From a virus, in the IMG/VR virus record IMGVR_UViG_3300009788_000012, positions 1 through 64,000 of that record: a stretch of 64,000 bases of DNA; one strand, 5' to 3'. The notes under the pieces were generated by a model that saw only the letters and a program-made list of their open reading frames with translations, searched no databases and was not told where the DNA came from. A program made the position numbers and the translations under genes. Shown here piece by piece: positions 8,898 through 57,948 of the stretch (the first letter of the stretch is position 1; every line of letters starts with the position of its first letter).

Positions 8898-10127
8898 CTA
8901 CCCCTTTATCACCGCAATCGGTGTCAACTCAGTGACGATCTCGACGAGGTCGCTTTGCTGAGCCATAACCTCGTCGATGTCTTTGTAAGCTCCCGGGGCT
9001 TCGTCGAGGTCGTTAGCATTCGTCATGGTGTGCTTGATGCCCTCCATAATCGCCTGTTGATCGGCAAGGTCTAATGTCTCTTTCGCTTTCTTGCGGCTCA
9101 TCCTCCGTCCGGCCCCATGCGAGCATGACATGAAGCTGTTTGGATTGCCGAGTCCCTTGACAATGTAGCTCTTCGTACCTTGGGAGCCCGGGATGATACC
9201 CAGCTCACCAGCACGTGCCCTCGTCGCGCCCTTGCGGTGAACCATCACGTTCTTGCCAAAGTGGTTCTCAAGGGCCGCGTAGTTGTGGGCGATGTCGATG
9301 TTTTCCTTCTGGCTAGGGTTCATAGACGTGACAGGAAAGTGTTTCCACCCCTCCGCCCTACGGTTGTGAAACACATTAGCAAGCGCTGCCCTCACCTTGC
9401 ACCCCATCTCAAAGCGATTGATCTGGGCATACCTGACACACCAGTTCATCTCTCGGATATACGTCGCGTGAGAAACTCCGTGTATATAATGCTCTCCCGG
9501 CATAATATCTGCCAGAAACGCCAGGTCGTCTTGCGTATCCGAAAACCAGGCGGCGTTCAGCTCTTTAGCTACCTTGTTATAGTAGTCAGCAATCTGCTTG
9601 CCGACATTGCGGCTCCCTGAGTGAATCATCACCCAGACCCACCCCTCCCCGTCTTTTTGTATCTCAATGAAATGGTTGCCTCCTCCTAAGGTGCCAAGCT
9701 GTTGGGTGGCGTTCTTTTTGTGCTTACCCGCAATAGGACACAGCCAATCATTAGGGAGTTGCCTGTATGTATATGGCGTCCTGGCGTGCTTTTTACAGCC
9801 AACCGGTACCGTGCTGCGGATGATGTCGATTATTTGCTCAAGACGCTCATAGGTTAGGTCGTCAGCCGTCAGCACGGTCCTGAAGGCATAGACGCCACAT
9901 CCAATATCAACCCCTACAGCGTTGGGTATAACGACGTTTTGGTCGGTCGCTAACACACCACCGATAGGCATACCGTAGCCCATGTGGCAGTCCGGCATGA
10001 TTGCGATATGGTGGAAGGCGAAGGGGAGACGAGCTAAATTATAGATCTGGTCGAGTGCGCCCGCCTCGATATTGGGGCACCAACTCTTGACATGAATACC
10101 GCAGTCCGTTTCGAATGCTTCGTGCAT
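8898..10127 (-). CDS. rtcB: RtcB RNA-splicing ligase
   Basis: 409 residues. Joins RNA 3'-phosphate or 2',3'-cyclic phosphate ends to 5'-OH ends using Mn2+ and GTP. Metal and active-site residues are visible: D46 and H48 (PDCHMG), D74 and C77 (VDIGCG), N152-H153 (GGGNHF), H170 (MIHSGSR), and the guanylated histidine H338 (SCSHGAG). The protein appears full length and intact. AAGGAG precedes the ATG. It is the first protein gene after the RNA region at 10.1-11.4 kb and is probably co-transcribed with it from the promoter at 11464-11492. That placement suggests its substrates are the tRNA pieces encoded there. No archease or RtcA is seen nearby. Confidence 0.93.
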   Translation of the reverse strand: MHEAFETDCGIHVKSWCPNIEAGALDQIYNLARLPFAFHHIAIMPDCHMGYGMPIGGVLATDQNVVIPNAVGVDIGCGVYAFRTVLTADDLTYERLEQIIDIIRSTVPVGCKKHARTPYTYRQLPNDWLCPIAGKHKKNATQQLGTLGGGNHFIEIQKDGEGWVWVMIHSGSRNVGKQIADYYNKVAKELNAAWFSDTQDDLAFLADIMPGEHYIHGVSHATYIREMNWCVRYAQINRFEMGCKVRAALANVFHNRRAEGWKHFPVTSMNPSQKENIDIAHNYAALENHFGKNVMVHRKGATRARAGELGIIPGSQGTKSYIVKGLGNPNSFMSCSHGAGRRMSRKKAKETLDLADQQAIMEGIKHTMTNANDLDEAPGAYKDIDEVMAQQSDLVEIVTELTPIAVIKG

Positions 10128-10139
10128 CTGTTTGCTCCT

Positions 10140-10480
10140 TCTGTTGTACCGCCTATGTTGTATAATGCCCGTCTCTCCGGGCTGTCACGCCGTTCCGTGG
10201 TTGTCCAATTCCAGGCGTCCTCGTATCCGACTTACCAAACCACTTGGCCGCATCAGTCTAATGGCTTTCCGGTGCGATGAGCATCATGTTCACCATAGCT
10301 CACAGAATTTGACATCCCGGTAACCATCAAGGCGTGGCCTTGTGCTAGGTTAGAATTTCCAGCAAACTCAGGAGTGCGCACTGGTGTAGCTCCTCCGGGA
10401 CTTGAAAACTATTCAAATGTTATGTATCAAAGCTGGCTCGTTAATTGGTGAGCCACGCCATCGCGGGCGCCTGTTTTAGT
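10140..10480 (-). other. Non-coding stretch, probable structured RNA
   Basis: No convincing protein gene on either strand. On the minus strand it begins with a hairpin (GGCTC/GAGCC arms near 10435-10456), then ATTTGAAT at 10418-10411, the same octamer found just before tRNA genes elsewhere in the window. Further hairpin-forming segments include CCCGG near 10392 able to pair with CCGGG near 10315. I could not fold it into a tRNA. It may be a leader of rtcB or an unrecognised ncRNA. Confidence 0.35.
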
Positions 10481-10546
10481 GTCCTCTGTGGGGGCAATTA
10501 TCCGCGCTTTTCGAGGGATGCCATCCTCCGTATGCAATGACTAAAC

Positions 10547-10626
10547 TGGTACCCGACGACGGGACTCGAACCCGCAAACACCACGACTCTTAATCAGGCT
10601 CGCTATGCCAATTCGCGTACGTGGGT
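10547..10626 (-). tRNA. tRNA-Leu-like gene, anticodon probably AAG, CCA encoded
   Basis: T-arm GCGGG-TTCGAGT-CCCGT is canonical, the D-arm has CGC/GCG with AATTGG as in leucine tRNAs, and CCA is encoded at 10549-10547. The acceptor 5' strand ACCCACG pairs with the 3' strand only if one C is bulged (CGT-C-GGGT). The anticodon arm CCTGA/TCGTG has one mismatch and a TTAAGAG loop, giving anticodon AAG, unusual in bacteria. The variable loop is short, unlike normal tRNA-Leu. ATTTGAAT lies 14 bases upstream. It may be functional or decayed. Confidence 0.5.
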
Positions 10627-10823
10627 GACCAGTAAAGATTATTCAAATTTTAGGTCCACCCCACAGGAAGTCATCCCGACTAAAGCGTTTTAGCCCCGTA
10701 GACCAGCGGGTAGGGCGGATAATGGTCAAATATTCTTAATCCTCGCACCCCTTCTCGACGAACAGACGTCTACTTTGGCGGCGAACGCATCAAGTTTCGA
10801 TGCGGTGCGAGGAATAAAAATAT

Positions 10824-10897
10824 GGGAGGTGCTCTATCCGCTGAGCTACACGTATGGGGGCGTGGCGGGATTTGAACCCACGACCTCCTCCCTAAAG
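10824..10897 (-). tRNA. tRNA halves in permuted order, unit Z
   Basis: Minus-strand order is: anticodon-loop end, GGAGG (10891-10887), T-arm GTGGG-TTCAAAT-CCCGC, acceptor 3' strand CACGCCC (10864-10858), a 2-base link, then acceptor 5' strand ATACGTG, TA, D-arm GCTC-AGCGGATA-GAGC, and CCTCC. So the 3' half precedes the 5' half. The anticodon stem CCTCC/GGAGG is perfect; the acceptor pairs only at its inner four positions (CGTG/CACG). ATTTGAAT lies 3 bases before the unit. Alternatively the 3' half belongs with the 5' half at 11025-10992 around a 95-base insert. Confidence 0.45.
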
Positions 10898-10991
10898 CTT
10901 ATTCAAATTTCAGGGGCGCCCGCCTAGCGGCTTCAAAGGCCTATGCGAAGCAATACGGTTTCAGTATTTTTATCGAGAGACGGGCGCAAAC

Positions 10992-11071
10992 ACGGGAGGC
11001 GAGATGACCACTTCTATATACACCCCTGACGGGTGTAGCCGGATTCGAACCACGCGATCTCCTCCCTAAAA
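10992..11071 (-). tRNA. tRNA halves in permuted order, unit Y
   Basis: 3' half first: GGAGG (11065-11061), T-loop TTCGAAT with a weak stem, acceptor TACACCC (11037-11031). Then linker GTCAG and the 5' half: acceptor GGGTGTA (11025-11019), T8-A9, D-stem AGA/TCT with AGTGGTCA loop, G26, CCTCC. The acceptor strands pair over all 7 positions. Read instead as a contiguous tRNA, 11109-11031 has an almost unpaired acceptor (GGCGACG against TACACCC). The joined loop would carry TTTT, consistent with a Lys UUU anticodon. Confidence 0.45.
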
Positions 11072-11072
11072 C

Positions 11073-11155
11073 AGGGAGGTGCTCTACCTACCAGTTGAGC
11101 TACGTCGCCCTGAGGGGGCGTCGGCAGGACTCGAACCTGCATCTCCTCCTTAAAA
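11073..11155 (-). tRNA. tRNA halves in permuted order, unit X, tRNA-Lys-like
   Basis: 3' half first: TTTTAA, GGAGG (11149-11145), T-arm GCAGG-TTCGAGT-CCTGC (perfect), acceptor CGACGCC (11123-11117). Then linker CCCTCAG and the 5' half: acceptor GGCGACG (11109-11103), TA, D-arm GCTC/GAGC with a GG-containing loop, A26, CCTCC, CT. Acceptor strands pair at 6 of 7 positions (one A-A). Joining the ends gives a 76-nt tRNA with a canonical CTTTTAA loop, anticodon UUU for Lys. ATTTGAAT lies 6 bases before the first base, where other tRNA genes here begin. Confidence 0.5.
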
Positions 11156-11161
11156 CTGTTC

Positions 11162-11340
11162 ATTCAAATTTTATGATTGCATTCGCGGAAGGGCGGCGCC
11201 CTTTAAGGATGCCCGCCCTTCCGCTCGACATAGGAGGTGGCGATATTTTTAGTGAGACGCCATCACTGTAAGTTTGGTTAGCCAGCAAAAGTAATCCATG
11301 CCTCCTACGATTGTTCAACTGTAGTCATTGCTCTTGGCGA
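11162..11340 (-). other. Leader segment with long hairpin before the tRNA halves
   Basis: Minus-strand stretch between the promoter leader and unit X. It holds a perfect 12-bp stem (GCGGAAGGGCGG at 11185-11196 with its complement at 11213-11224), then ATTTGAAT at 11169-11162. A second weaker hairpin (TGGCG/CGCCA) lies at 11238-11263. Tiny reading frames such as MDYFCWLTK... (16 codons near 11300) exist but are too short to call. No gene longer than 20 codons is supported. Confidence 0.4.
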
Positions 11341-11463
11341 GTAGTCTCGCGTCAAACATTAGGCATTGGTCTTCTCCTTTTGGGTGCTTTCCCGTGCGGG
11401 GCACAAATTCTATTTTCAACTTGTTGATGGGTGTCTTACCCGTTCTCCCCTCAACTTGACCTA

Positions 11464-11492
11464 AGTGTACACGAAAACGATCCGTTTGTCAA
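11464..11492 (-). promoter_or_regulatory. Sigma70-like promoter for the RNA region and rtcB
   Basis: Minus strand: TTGACA (11492-11487), 17-bp spacer, TACACT (11469-11464). Transcription would start near 11457 and run into the tRNA halves, the tRNA-Leu-like gene and rtcB. The spacer ends TTTTCGTG, like other promoters in this window. Confidence 0.75.
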
Positions 11493-11531
11493 GTACTTTC
11501 TCAAAAAACTTTTAGAGGGGCGCAGCCCACT

Positions 11532-36466: not shown

Positions 36467-37177
36467 CTAGGAGCTTCTATCCCAGCTCCTGGTAATCTTG
36501 CCGTCGACATGGCACTTAAAGGACTGTGCTGCCTTTTTGTTAATAATCATGTCACAACGCTTAATGATGTGTCCTCTGTATATTTGCCCAATCATCTCAT
36601 TGAACAGAACGACCCATTCCGACCAAGGCAGAAGATCCAGGTAGGGTACACATCTTCGAATGTGAGTCCAGTCGTTACAATCAGTGAGTGTGGAAAATTT
36701 CAGATGAGCCCGATGTTCAAACTGATCAATAAACGAATCTAGGCTATCCCTCGTTCCTAACTGCCCTGAATAGATAATCGTGCTTATAGTCAGGTCCGAA
36801 GAGAAGTCAGATTGGCTAGGAAGCCGCCAAAGGCCAGACGGGTAGTTTGATATATTGAAGCAATCTATTACTCCGTCCACAGATTTGAGTATTGACGGGA
36901 GGGTATAGTTCGTCGTAAGGACAGATCGAAGTTTGGACTCGCGCACAAGGTGCGCTATTTCCTTGAGTCGAGGATGCATGCACGGCTCCCCACCCGTTAG
37001 CAGGACATCTTCGAGACCTTGTTGTTCGGCGAAGCTAATGGCGTTAGCTACGCTGTCAAGAGAAATAAACCCCTTGTCGCCCCTGTATTTATCAATGCAA
37101 AACTGGCACGACTTGTTGCACTCATGCGTAAGTACTATGTTTATATACGAGCCCGCCACTTGTTTTACTGAGAACAT
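36467..37177 (-). CDS. Radical SAM enzyme
   Basis: 236 residues. The Fe-S motif C20-x3-C24-x2-C27 (CNKSCQFC) is followed by the SAM-contacting GGEP at 62-65, in an N-terminal TIM-barrel pattern. Such enzymes generate a 5'-deoxyadenosyl radical; the substrate is unknown. It lacks the QueE-type N-terminus, so deazaguanine synthesis is not supported. No SPASM-type Cys cluster is obvious at the C-terminus, although C150, C159 and later single Cys occur. It lies just upstream of the virion promoter, in a group with small unknown genes. Unusual cargo for a phage. Confidence 0.8.
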   Translation of the reverse strand: MFSVKQVAGSYINIVLTHECNKSCQFCIDKYRGDKGFISLDSVANAISFAEQQGLEDVLLTGGEPCMHPRLKEIAHLVRESKLRSVLTTNYTLPSILKSVDGVIDCFNISNYPSGLWRLPSQSDFSSDLTISTIIYSGQLGTRDSLDSFIDQFEHRAHLKFSTLTDCNDWTHIRRCVPYLDLLPWSEWVVLFNEMIGQIYRGHIIKRCDMIINKKAAQSFKCHVDGKITRSWDRSS

Positions 37178-39056: not shown

Positions 39057-40208
39057 TTACAACTTACTCTTCGCCAAGTACTCTGGCGACCTCTGCTTCA
39101 GCATTAGACGGCCCTGCAGCTTCGGGCTCCAGATCTCTTCCAGCCATGGCTTGATGACAATTCCCTCTCGCGCGACATCTGGGTTTAGGACGGAACGTCC
39201 GTTGCTGGCGTCTTTGACTGAACCGCCATATGGCGCTAGGAATTCGCTGAGCGGACCACGGAAAATTTCTGGAACTGCCGGTCGTGGAGAATGCCCCTCA
39301 TCCATGAGAATGAAATCACCAAAGGTTTCCATTATACTTTGGAAAAGACGCGACGATAGGTACTTCCTGTCGGGTAGCAGCGCATCAAAGAAACGGACCT
39401 GATGTTTCTCAAGCTTGTAGATGTTGCCCTGGATCCCGGGACCGATCAATTCGCCACGAAGGCAGAATGTCTTAACTTCAGGATAAATCTCAGATAACAT
39501 AATGTGGAAATAATGGGCGACTCCGACAAGGTTTAGCTCCTTCACCACCCGATGGAAGGTGTGGACCTTCGCCTGCTCCTCAAGGAGTGGCGTCACCGTA
39601 TGCTTCCGGGTACAGACCTCGTGCTCGCCGGTGGTGGCGTCGTAGGTCATGGCGAAGTTGGTGCCTTCGAGTTTTTCGGTTATCCAAACGTCGCCACACC
39701 GTTTCAACTCATCCAGCTCTCTCGGGTGTCGGTCCGCCCCCTCGATGTCGTAGACGGGTACCCATGGCGGAAGTGTGGTGAGCTTAGCAGAGCCGACGAA
39801 GACCTCGGGGGGTTCGTATTTGGTGACGCCCAGGCGCTCTGCTATATCACCAATTTCGTCGCGCTCCTCGATAAAATCATACCAAAAGTGCTTGAAGAGC
39901 CAATGTGGGAGAGTATCCTCTGGCTTGCCGACGATCCCTTGGCTAATTTCACTCCTAAGCCGGATGGTTTTCACTCGATTTTTCTCAGGGCCTGATAGTC
40001 GCCCCTCTAAGCCAAGCCGAGCGATGATGTCGTCCGGCAGAATGCTATCGATGGGGAAATAGACCACCTCGTCGCCCTGCTTATACTCATCTCGACCCGT
40101 GATAAACTGAAACTCCAACCCGTCCACCTTGGCGATGTCGAGGCGGTCGGCATTCGGGTGATGGCTGACTTCGCTGATGCGTCTGATTTCGACTGCGAAT
40201 TTACTCAT
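39057..40208 (-). CDS. RNA ligase, DRB0094/Rnl5 type
   Basis: 383 residues. An N-terminal OB-like domain (HPNADRLDIAKVDG, residues 17-30) precedes a nucleotidyltransferase domain with the AMP-accepting lysine K179 in T-E-K-L-E-G-T-N, motif III-like RGE at 251-253, motif IV EGIVIKPW near 348-355 and motif V LKQRS near 370-374. This matches the Deinococcus RNA ligase family, which seals 3'-OH/5'-phosphate nicks in RNA held by a template strand. It lies 400 bases from the second tRNA cluster, so tRNA repair is a natural guess. With RtcB the phage has two RNA ligases of different chemistry. Confidence 0.85.
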   Translation of the reverse strand: MSKFAVEIRRISEVSHHPNADRLDIAKVDGLEFQFITGRDEYKQGDEVVYFPIDSILPDDIIARLGLEGRLSGPEKNRVKTIRLRSEISQGIVGKPEDTLPHWLFKHFWYDFIEERDEIGDIAERLGVTKYEPPEVFVGSAKLTTLPPWVPVYDIEGADRHPRELDELKRCGDVWITEKLEGTNFAMTYDATTGEHEVCTRKHTVTPLLEEQAKVHTFHRVVKELNLVGVAHYFHIMLSEIYPEVKTFCLRGELIGPGIQGNIYKLEKHQVRFFDALLPDRKYLSSRLFQSIMETFGDFILMDEGHSPRPAVPEIFRGPLSEFLAPYGGSVKDASNGRSVLNPDVAREGIVIKPWLEEIWSPKLQGRLMLKQRSPEYLAKSKL

Positions 40209-40608: not shown

Positions 40609-40684
40609 TGGTGAGCCCGGTCGGATTCGAACCGACGACCCACGGCTTATGAGGCCGGCGCTCTACCAACTGAGCTACGGGCTC
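40609..40684 (-). tRNA. tRNA-Met (CAT)
   Basis: 76 bases with encoded CCA. Acceptor GAGCCCG/CGGGCTC perfect; D-arm GCTC-AGTTGGTA-GAGC; anticodon arm CCGGC-CTCATAA-GCCGT (one mismatch at 27-43); T-arm GTCGG-TTCGAAT-CCGAC. Anticodon CAT reads Met; initiator, elongator or Ile2 use is not decided from sequence. Confidence 0.9.
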
Positions 40685-40686
40685 AT

Positions 40687-40756
40687 TACCTTCGGGAGGA
40701 TTCGAACCCCACCTCCGCCTCGCAAGGCGGCGCTCTACCATTAAGCTACCGAAGGC
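40687..40756 (-). tRNA. tRNA-like gene, anticodon uncertain (GCG if 6-base loop)
   Basis: Acceptor GCCTTCG/CGAAGGT, D-arm GCTT-AATGGTA-GAGC, T-loop TTCGAAT with TGGGG/CCTCC stem. One extra base lies before T8 and the anticodon loop between CCGCC and GGCGG has only six bases (TTGCGA). No CCA. ATTTGAAT lies 2 bases upstream. Possibly a decayed or unusual tRNA (Arg or Ala). Confidence 0.6.
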
Positions 40757-40790
40757 AAATTCAAATGTTTTCTTCGAAATGTTTAAGTGA

Positions 40791-40864
40791 ACCCCGCGAC
40801 TGGAATCAAACCAGTACCTCGCCCTATAGGGTCAATTGCGTGCTATCAACTACACCACGCGGGG
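40791..40864 (-). tRNA. tRNA-like gene with abnormal anticodon arm
   Basis: Acceptor CCCCGCG/CGCGGGG, D-arm GTGT-AGTTGATA-GCAC and T-arm ACTGG-TTTGATT-CCAGT are all perfect. Between them are 23 bases (CAATTGACCCTATAGGGCGA...) that do not form a normal five-pair anticodon stem; CCC-TATA-GGG is the only stem. No anticodon can be assigned and CCA is not encoded. Confidence 0.6.
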
Positions 40865-57113: not shown

Positions 57114-57631
57114 AAATTATTTTTTATTCCCCAGGTCAATATCCCCAACGCGTCCGCCGTATATAGCGTCACATCCAGGTGGGGATACAGCCCAGCCACC
57201 ACATCCTTAATCTCATTTTTCCTGATCGTCTTGTCCTTCGAGGAAGAGCCCTTGTGAAACGGCACACCATTCCGGTGTTCCGTTGCCAACCACTTCATCC
57301 ACGTCTGTGGCGCCACCAACTCAAACGGCGGTGTCGACTGATCCTGCCCGTAACATATCCCCTTGATTATACCAACATGGTGAGCGAATTTGCAAGAAGA
57401 GGGGCCAGCATTACCTTGACGATAAAACCCGACGTTCTCAATGTAGATCTTCTGGTACACCTCGCAATTGTCGTTGCGGAGATACTCCATTAACATAGTT
57501 CCGTGCAAAACTCTCTCTTTACCTTTGCCCTTAGTGGGCATTTTATAGGCATATACCCCGAGTGGAGCACATGTCGCCACCCCACCATCCTTCCCGGGAT
57601 CAATGGCTACTACAACTTGTGGCTTGCCCAT
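57110..57631 (-). CDS. RuvC-like Holliday junction resolvase
   Basis: 173 residues from the ATG at 57631. RNase H-fold signature: D11 in AIDPGKDGG, E65 in YIENVGF, and D160 in TADALGI, with HHVGIIKG and APQTWMKW between, as in phage and poxvirus RuvC-like enzymes. It would cut branched DNA before packaging. The length is typical. TGATG coupling with the coiled-coil gene upstream. Only three of the usual four acidic residues are obvious. Confidence 0.82.
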   Translation of the reverse strand: MGKPQVVVAIDPGKDGGVATCAPLGVYAYKMPTKGKGKERVLHGTMLMEYLRNDNCEVYQKIYIENVGFYRQGNAGPSSCKFAHHVGIIKGICYGQDQSTPPFELVAPQTWMKWLATEHRNGVPFHKGSSSKDKTIRKNEIKDVVAGLYPHLDVTLYTADALGILTWGIKNNL

Positions 57632-57948
57632 CACTCAGCACCTTCCTTCCTTGCTGCCCAGGCGGCAAACTTCCGAGCGACCACACCAACGGCATCAGCC
57701 ATTATCTCTTCGTTCAGCGCCTTGAGGCGCTGATTCTCTAAAAGAAGCTCCATGTTGTCAGCCTGAAGGGAGAGGGCTTCATCCACTTGCGCTTGTTCTT
57801 TATTTTTTAATCGTAAGATCCAATCTCGCTGATCCTCCACTAAGGCACGAGCATTATCTCTTTCTATTGCACAGAAACAGAGATCGCTCCTCAGTTTGGA
57901 GATCCTCTCCCGAAGTATAACCGTGTCGTCTTTCCAAAGCCAACCCAT
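57631..57948 (-). CDS. Coiled-coil protein, 105 residues
   Basis: Charged helix with heptads (ILRERISKLRSDLCF, then LQADNMELLLENQRLKAL). Starts MGWLWKDDT at 57948 and is coupled at both ends by TGATG. Could be a membrane-edge or spanin-like rod, but no signal sequence or lipobox is seen. Function unknown. Confidence 0.55.
   Translation of the reverse strand: MGWLWKDDTVILRERISKLRSDLCFCAIERDNARALVEDQRDWILRLKNKEQAQVDEALSLQADNMELLLENQRLKALNEEIMADAVGVVARKFAAWAARKEGAE

Follow-up and report, generated by a model that had tools for sequence, protein, structure and literature searches.

The stretch of viral DNA analysed here (64,000 nucleotides, hereafter the window) covers nearly all of an IMG/VR virus record of 64,291 bases, which is classed as linear. 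Most of its genes are encoded on the minus strand, and the identified products include a portal protein, both terminase subunits (large and small), primase and thymidylate synthase. Between a DUF1353 gene and rtcB, positions 10128-11531 form a 1.4 kb stretch without any minus-strand gene, which contains, in minus-strand order, a promoter-like site, three tRNA-like units (X, Y and Z), a tRNA-Leu-like element and further structured spacers (Table 1). The first gene downstream of the X-Y-Z array is rtcB, about 680 nt from the end of the last module, and the conserved RtcB motif residues are intact in its product. The sigma-70-like promoter upstream of the array is suggestive only; promoter-like sites were observed four times, against 2.4 expected from shuffles. 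No intrinsic terminator was found when one was looked for on the minus strand between the array and rtcB. A distant blastn search with the array region against phage records returned zero matches. A pattern scan of IMG/VR for the ATTTGAAT leader (see below) followed by GGAGG gave a near-identical contig as its sole related match, and a scan with the neighbouring exonuclease gene recovered the same contig alone; over 2,800 compared bases the two loci differ once, and no other relative was found in the collections searched.

Table 1. Coordinates of the array, its neighbours and the RNA ligase genes in the window (R1, permuted tRNA covariance model described in the text)
Feature	Position	Strand	Basis or score
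rtcB, RNA 2',3'-cyclic phosphate/5'-OH ligase	8898..10127	-	PF01139 E 2.9e-108; phrog_1075 E 2.9e-122
Leader motif copy CATTTGAATAG, no assigned downstream element	10409..10419	-	
tRNA-Leu(aag)-like element, normal order, encoded CCA, poor anticodon arm	10551..10626	-	ARAGORN
Leader motif AAATTTGAATAATC before Leu-like element	10637..10650	-	
Unit Z, candidate Y-RNA-like module	10808..10905	-	YrlA 39.4 bits, whole model; R1 59.3 bits
Z 5' half	10825..10855	-	string match
Z 3' half	10858..10891	-	string match
Leader motif AAATTTGAATAAGC before unit Z	10897..10910	-	
Unit Y, candidate module	10995..11065	-	acceptor 7/7, weak T-stem; R1 37.8 bits
Y 5' half	10995..11025	-	string match
Y 3' half	11031..11065	-	string match
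Unit X, candidate Y-RNA-like module	11067..11162	-	MFE -36.1 kcal/mol; YrlA 27.4 bits; R1 51.6 bits
X 5' half	11075..11109	-	acceptor 6/7 with X 3' half
X 3' half	11117..11149	-	sequence reading, string match
Leader motif AAATTTGAATGA before unit X	11160..11171	-	
Sigma-70-like promoter TTGACA-17-TACACT, upstream of array	11464..11492	-	10/12 consensus matches
Second RNA ligase (PF09414, PHA02142 OB-fold, phrog_968)	39057-40208	-	downstream of tRNA cluster 40609-40860

With the ligase gene downstream of a tRNA cluster listed in Table 1, the window encodes two RNA ligases of different kinds, both with tRNA-like genes nearby. The location of the second ligase beside a cluster of tRNAs with odd anticodon arms fits an RNA-repair theme. 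As separate observations on this region, an ordinary tRNA-Met is accompanied by a tRNA with a 6-nt anticodon loop (40687-40756, minus strand) and by a tRNA-like element (about 40785-40863, minus strand) that has a 7/7 acceptor but no convincing anticodon stem. A radical SAM protein with a weak QueE-like match is encoded at 36467-37177 (minus strand).

The original prediction described three tRNAs encoded as permuted halves, and string matching located all six halves, alternating 3'-5'-3'-5'-3'-5' on the minus strand as described, with half-to-half spans of 11149-11075 for X, 11065-10995 for Y and 10891-10825 for Z (minus strand). In a matrix of 5' against 3' halves with G-U counted, the claimed acceptor matches of 6/7 (X-X), 7/7 (Y-Y) and 4/7 (Z-Z) were reproduced, and Watson-Crick pairs alone give the same 6/7, 7/7 and 4/7. 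Off the diagonal, Y-Z reaches 6/7 (5 Watson-Crick and 1 G-U) and every remaining combination at most 3. In our own reading, X has one additional G-C pair beyond the seven acceptor pairs. When acceptor strands of 80 different phage tRNAs were combined with one another (6,320 pairings), the chance of at least six Watson-Crick pairs was 0.0043, that of seven was 0.0005, and that of a sum of at least 17 over three random pairings was 4.5e-6, placing the observed matches above chance; permutation among the three window units alone is a weak test (best of 6). The CCTCC/GGAGG anticodon stems are perfect (5/5) in X, Y and Z, and joined X would indeed be a 76-nt tRNA with a CTTTTAA loop. Spacers resembling variable loops, and conserved letters in the T- and D-loops, are also present in the units. 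The T-stem of Y is poor (3/5), and the Z acceptor is a mere 4-bp hairpin from which the three outer acceptor pairs are missing. A loop of 5-8 nt caps each of the three acceptor stems, and the expected CCA site carries no encoded CCA. X and Y are joined by 9 nt, CTGTTTTAG, and the loops of joined Y and Z would set C32 opposite G38.

Read in normal order, the element at 11109-11030 scores 21.5 bits with the Rfam tRNA model (gathering score 29) and has four broken acceptor pairs, in agreement with the claim that this contiguous tRNA is a poor one. In that order the X 3' half and the Z 5' half are without partners. The combination Y5'-[103 nt]-Z3', a possible intron reading with a 6/7 acceptor, had gone uncounted. 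ARAGORN, one of the programs proposed for checking the locus, made a single call in the array region, tRNA-Leu(aag) at 10551-10626; a permuted model found all three units, but this model also scores tandem tRNA junctions, as described below.

Secondary structure prediction suggests that X and Z, each taken by itself, adopt the swapped form and pair their own ends in a basal stem. For X with its flanks (11162-11067), the minimum free energy structure is the complete swapped form, consisting of the basal helix GAACAG/CTGTTT, a 6-nt bulge, the GGAGG/CCTCC stem, a T-arm, a closed acceptor stem and a D-arm, and 5/300 shuffles folded to as low an energy. For Z, both the minimum free energy and the centroid structures are the swapped form (-30.5 kcal/mol, z -2.4; 4/300 shuffles as good), which contains the basal helix GAATAAG/TTTATTC, a 5x5 internal loop, GGGAGG/CCTCCC, a T-arm, the 4-bp acceptor hairpin and a D-arm. 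The fold signal is absent from trimmed X and Y fragments and present in full-length X. A basal helix was looked for in Y and none was found, and for the X-Y tandem two separate modules are 4.5 kcal/mol less stable than a fold containing an X5'-Y3' hairpin. No bulge-helix-bulge is present at the junctions in the predicted folds, where X has a one-sided 6-nt bulge and Z a symmetric 5x5 loop, while a non-archaeal processing signal may lie at these junctions.

An AU-rich leader, ATTTGAAT, precedes five small-RNA-like elements, all on the minus strand (at 11171, 10910, 10650, 10419 and 40768). The last copy stands 3 nt ahead of an ordinary tRNA at 40756. Since ATTTGAAT is found before X, Z, the Leu-like element and an ordinary tRNA, it appears to be a signal ahead of small RNA genes rather than part of a tRNA, and could act as a promoter element of RNA genes or mark a processing site. 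The Leu-like element (10626-10551) scores 20.7 bits with the tRNA model, below the gathering score of 29. The letters TTTA, which look like the remnant of a Lys anticodon, also follow ATTTGAAT before this element, which is itself not a 3' half; the TTTA before GGAGG therefore need not be an anticodon.

The swapped order has a known counterpart in the bacterial Y RNA YrlA, an RNA of 90-150 nt in which a long stem joins the ends and a tRNA-like domain is formed by T, acceptor and D arms (PMC8394870, PMC7790460). Bacterial Y RNAs are tRNA mimics that are used as transcribed (PMC8394870). The structure of Salmonella YrlA is cited as 6CU1 in PMC8394870, and a decoy role has been raised as a possibility for its tRNA-like domain (PMC7790460). 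In some bacteria, rsr, Y RNA genes and rtcA-rtcB form one operon, rsr-yrlBA-rtcBA (PMC7790460, PMC8394870). With regard to Rfam, the best-scoring family for Z is YrlA, matched over the whole model with 39.4 bits (E 8.4e-7), and X scores 27.4 bits; neither reaches the gathering score of RF02553 (69 bits). Modules linked to Ro60 (TROVE) genes in other RtcB phages score 26.9-41.2 bits, likewise all below 69, so that X and Z lie within their range. YrlA binds Ro60/Rsr, directing PNPase. Neither TROVE (PF05731) nor DUF2828 (PF11443) was detected in the 64,291-base record, which is possibly a fragment, and tblastn of the record with open reading frames from TROVE loci gave no convincing match. Because the gathering score is not reached and a Ro60 gene was not found, we do not claim strict membership of RF02553.

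As a second probe, a covariance model (R1) was built solely from ordinary phage tRNAs that had been permuted in silico. In 29 RtcB records, R1 ranks Z first and also finds X and Y. Ordinary tandem tRNA junctions score as well, up to 29 bits with YrlA and up to 49 bits with R1, so that bit scores alone are not diagnostic with either model and were rejected as proof.

R1 was then applied to 79 records of RtcB-encoding viral contigs, with hits between ordinary tRNAs excluded. Isolated modules were left in the window record (plus its near-identical contig) and in the contigs numbered G002, G017, G021, G034, G071, G075 and G076. A TROVE gene occurs in 5/8 records with isolated modules vs. 0/31 tested records without (Fisher p 9.7e-5, a post hoc test that record length may confound), at about 0.4-4 kb from the module in those five records. 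Neither TROVE nor DUF2828 is found in the window record, G021 or G075. Short loops close the acceptors both in the window and elsewhere, with UUCG in G017, G071 and G075, GCAA in G075 and 5-8 nt in X, Y and Z. The G021 module has a 7/7 acceptor, a discriminator A and an encoded CCA. Among named phages with rtcB, Mycobacterium phage Aziz has a module at 57619-57690 (71.2 bits), Caulobacter phage phiCbK has one at 103600-103671, and Enterococcus phage EfV12-phi1 has three, of which two immediately precede a DUF2828 gene; a search for TROVE alone found no such gene in the complete RtcB phages Aziz and phiCbK. The modules of Aziz, phiCbK, EfV12-phi1, G017, G034, G071, G075 and G076 share the topology and have similar R1 and YrlA scores. 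Unlike those of the window, they are mostly single or scattered and do not lie directly upstream of rtcB, and several are near TROVE or DUF2828 genes.

Several further matches were rejected or are recorded here separately. Matches in Proteus phage P59, BUCTxx99, pf16 and one in phiCbK were rejected as tandem tRNA junctions, and G002:86167 (R1 53.4 bits) was set aside as the junction of two insertion-bearing tRNAs with similar acceptors. The RtcB contig G075 (210 kb, no TROVE gene) carries tandem permuted modules with UUCG/GCAA-closed acceptors and a 4-nt linker among ordinary tRNAs (L223, minus strand 99730-99100). Long insertions interrupt the anticodon-loop region of three tRNAs in G002 (L039, minus strand 1714-1570, 1560-1437 and 1419-1299), a record that also codes for RtcB and a TROVE protein; two of the insertions look homologous, CTATT/TTATT .. 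CCGRA .. TTATC is common to all three, and they are possibly an undescribed small intron type. In Mycobacterium phage GenevaB15, the element annotated as tRNA-Leu(aag) (L258, 284-352) is probably a mis-annotation composed of a permuted module's 5' half and the 3' half that follows.

Covariation was analysed in a module alignment of the mycobacteriophages Aziz/GenevaB15, Estes, MrMagoo and Reindeer; the phiCbK relatives were left out, their alignment showing the module clearly in phiCbK and Ccr10 only. Two pairs of the swapped anticodon stem (C-G to U-A and G-C to A-U) and two of the T-stem have changed in a compensatory manner, and 98.7% of alignment cells are paired, compared with 32-51% for controls with slid partners. 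All four changes occur in Reindeer, which means four pairs, yet one lineage. The aligned sequences thus show the swapped pairing to be under selection in that lineage. By itself, this covariation fits a Y-like RNA and a permuted tRNA alike and does not distinguish between them.

Taken together, we consider it probable, though well short of assured, that X, Y and Z are orphan non-coding RNAs of a Y-RNA-like (YrlA-type) kind, arrayed in tandem within the leader of the phage's rtcB operon. What the genomes themselves display is the predicted module structure, its repetition in an array, the site directly upstream of rtcB and the like modules in other RtcB phages. In each module a T-arm would be followed by an acceptor-like stem capped by a short loop and then by a D-arm, reproducing a tRNA's upper half with its order swapped. 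The ends would exit through an anticodon-stem-like helix that is extended by a basal stem in X and Z, and the module would be used as transcribed, without end joining. A single transcript from the promoter at 11492 may include rtcB, and the RNAs may be freed by cleavage, perhaps near the ATTTGAAT leaders, to serve as tRNA mimics beside RtcB in RNA repair. In one option, the modules would bind a host Ro60/Rsr, a putative interaction linked to PNPase as for YrlA; in another, they would act as decoys for the nucleases that cut tRNAs (anticodon nucleases), with RtcB re-sealing the cut ones. The data favour neither option, and we make no choice between them.

While X and Z resemble YrlA in the swapped order of T-arm, closed acceptor-like stem and D-arm, in a basal stem of paired ends, and in length (96-98 nt vs. 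the reported 90-150), and the array resembles YrlA systems in its adjoining rtcB (common in bacteria, not obligatory), there are also differences. First, the window has three modules in tandem, with an X-Y gap of only 9 nt. Second, its modules keep a tRNA-like anticodon stem and variable-loop spacing. Third, the contig has no detected Ro60 gene, its scores are under the Rfam cutoff, and any Ro60 binding is putative. The absence of a phage Ro60 gene, the sub-cutoff scores, the missing basal stem of Y and the competing X5'-Y3' fold all count against the Y-RNA-like reading. Phage precedents exist: Y RNAs have been reported in mycobacteriophages according to PMC12282133, which cites Chen 2014, and the authors of that study propose that abundant non-coding RNAs of Listeria phage CKA15, beside an Rsr-like gene, are Y RNAs. 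These RNAs, like the array, are phage non-coding RNAs near tRNAs; however, CKA15 has an Rsr-like protein and measured RNA expression, whereas the RNAs of the window array are predicted from sequence (PMC12282133).

That the units are true permuted tRNA genes, as first proposed, we regard as unlikely. The ends of each module would be cut, RtcB would circularise it by joining the 5' half to the 3' half at the anticodon loop, and the acceptor would then be opened by RNase P and tRNase Z. Circularly permuted tRNA genes are known from Cyanidioschyzon, other algae and Thermofilum (PMC3978253, PMC3218864), where the 3' half also comes first, the intervening sequence is short and a ligase is plausible; intervening sequences down to 1 nt are known (PMC3978253), and RtcB ligates tRNA halves in archaea and metazoa (PMC7790460). 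The downstream rtcB, a tRNA-splicing-type ligase that the original prediction did not mention, keeps the idea alive through its adjacency to the array and its intact motif residues, together with the acceptor pairing (good in X and Y, poor in Z), the spacers and loop letters typical of tRNAs, the canonical Lys-type loop that X would yield, the CCA-bearing module of G021 and the modules of the TROVE-less Aziz and phiCbK. The second RNA ligase (39057-40208) is a further candidate for joining halves. On the other side, the lack of a predicted bulge-helix-bulge, the CCA-less linkers of 5-8 nt, the UUCG and GCAA loops closing other modules, C32 opposite G38 in joined Y and Z, and the TTTA shared with the Leu-like element argue for the Y-RNA-like over the permuted-tRNA reading. 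Z lacks its three outer acceptor pairs, and no splicing endonuclease was found among the proteins scanned. In its predicted junction folds and its imperfect Z acceptor, the array differs from the permuted genes of algae and Thermofilum. Of the original prediction, the swapped order and the pairing are real, but end-joined tRNA genes are not the best reading; its statement that no permuted tRNA is established in phages still holds in the literature searched. The wider proposal that RtcB phages (the present one and others such as G021 and Aziz) encode permuted tRNAs which are joined by their own RtcB, and are spared from or remade after anticodon cleavage, is doubtful to the same degree.

The fallback offered with the original prediction, a decayed and functionless array in which recombination in the shared anticodon stem scrambled ancestral tRNAs, is improbable in our estimate. 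It would account for the identical GGAGG/CCTCC stems in X, Y and Z, for the broken Y T-stem and outer Z acceptor pairs, and for the sub-cutoff scores of the Leu-like element and of 11109-11030. Decay would hardly leave the acceptor hairpins of X and Y intact despite their differing sequences (p 4.5e-6 for the sum of three), nor basal helices in X and Z with folds that beat about 98% of shuffles, nor isolated like modules in other phages, one lineage of which maintains the pairing by compensatory changes. For X and Z, which retain both acceptor hairpin and basal-stem pairing, scrambled pseudogenes are disfavoured.

We hold it very unlikely that the modules are a cis-acting operator, remaining in the rtcB leader so that RtcB or a sensor of tRNA damage controls rtcB. 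The shared strand, the upstream promoter and the failure to find an intervening terminator are compatible with such a role, but the last module ends some 680 nt before rtcB, the leader motifs and spacers suggest separate RNAs, and in most other phages the modules do not adjoin rtcB. Scarcely plausible is a series of normal-order tRNAs with RtcB-spliced introns, such as Y5'-[103 nt]-Z3' and others: against the 6/7 acceptor of this combination and the long anticodon-loop insertions in three tRNAs of RtcB-encoding G002 stand the single workable pair (Watson-Crick pairs X5'-Y3' 2 vs. Y5'-Z3' 5, the swapped order giving 6, 7 and 4), the unpartnered Z 5' and X 3' halves, and a Y-Z spacer that by eye is unlike the G002 insertions. 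Group I or other known introns were rejected, with no Rfam match.

These results tie swapped-order tRNA-like modules to RtcB phages both with and without a Ro60 gene, and the Aziz relatives represent one lineage that maintains the module through compensatory changes. For annotation, YrlA matches inside phage tRNA arrays may be artefacts of tandem junctions, and permuted modules can be annotated as tRNA-Leu, as seemingly in GenevaB15. Aziz and phiCbK are cultivable and carry both rtcB and a module, which opens the question to bench work. If the units are joined into tRNAs, theirs would be, to our knowledge, the first permuted tRNA pathway in bacterial viruses. If the Y-RNA-like reading is true, tRNA mimics would be part of the RNA-repair equipment of phages, possibly even without a phage Ro60.
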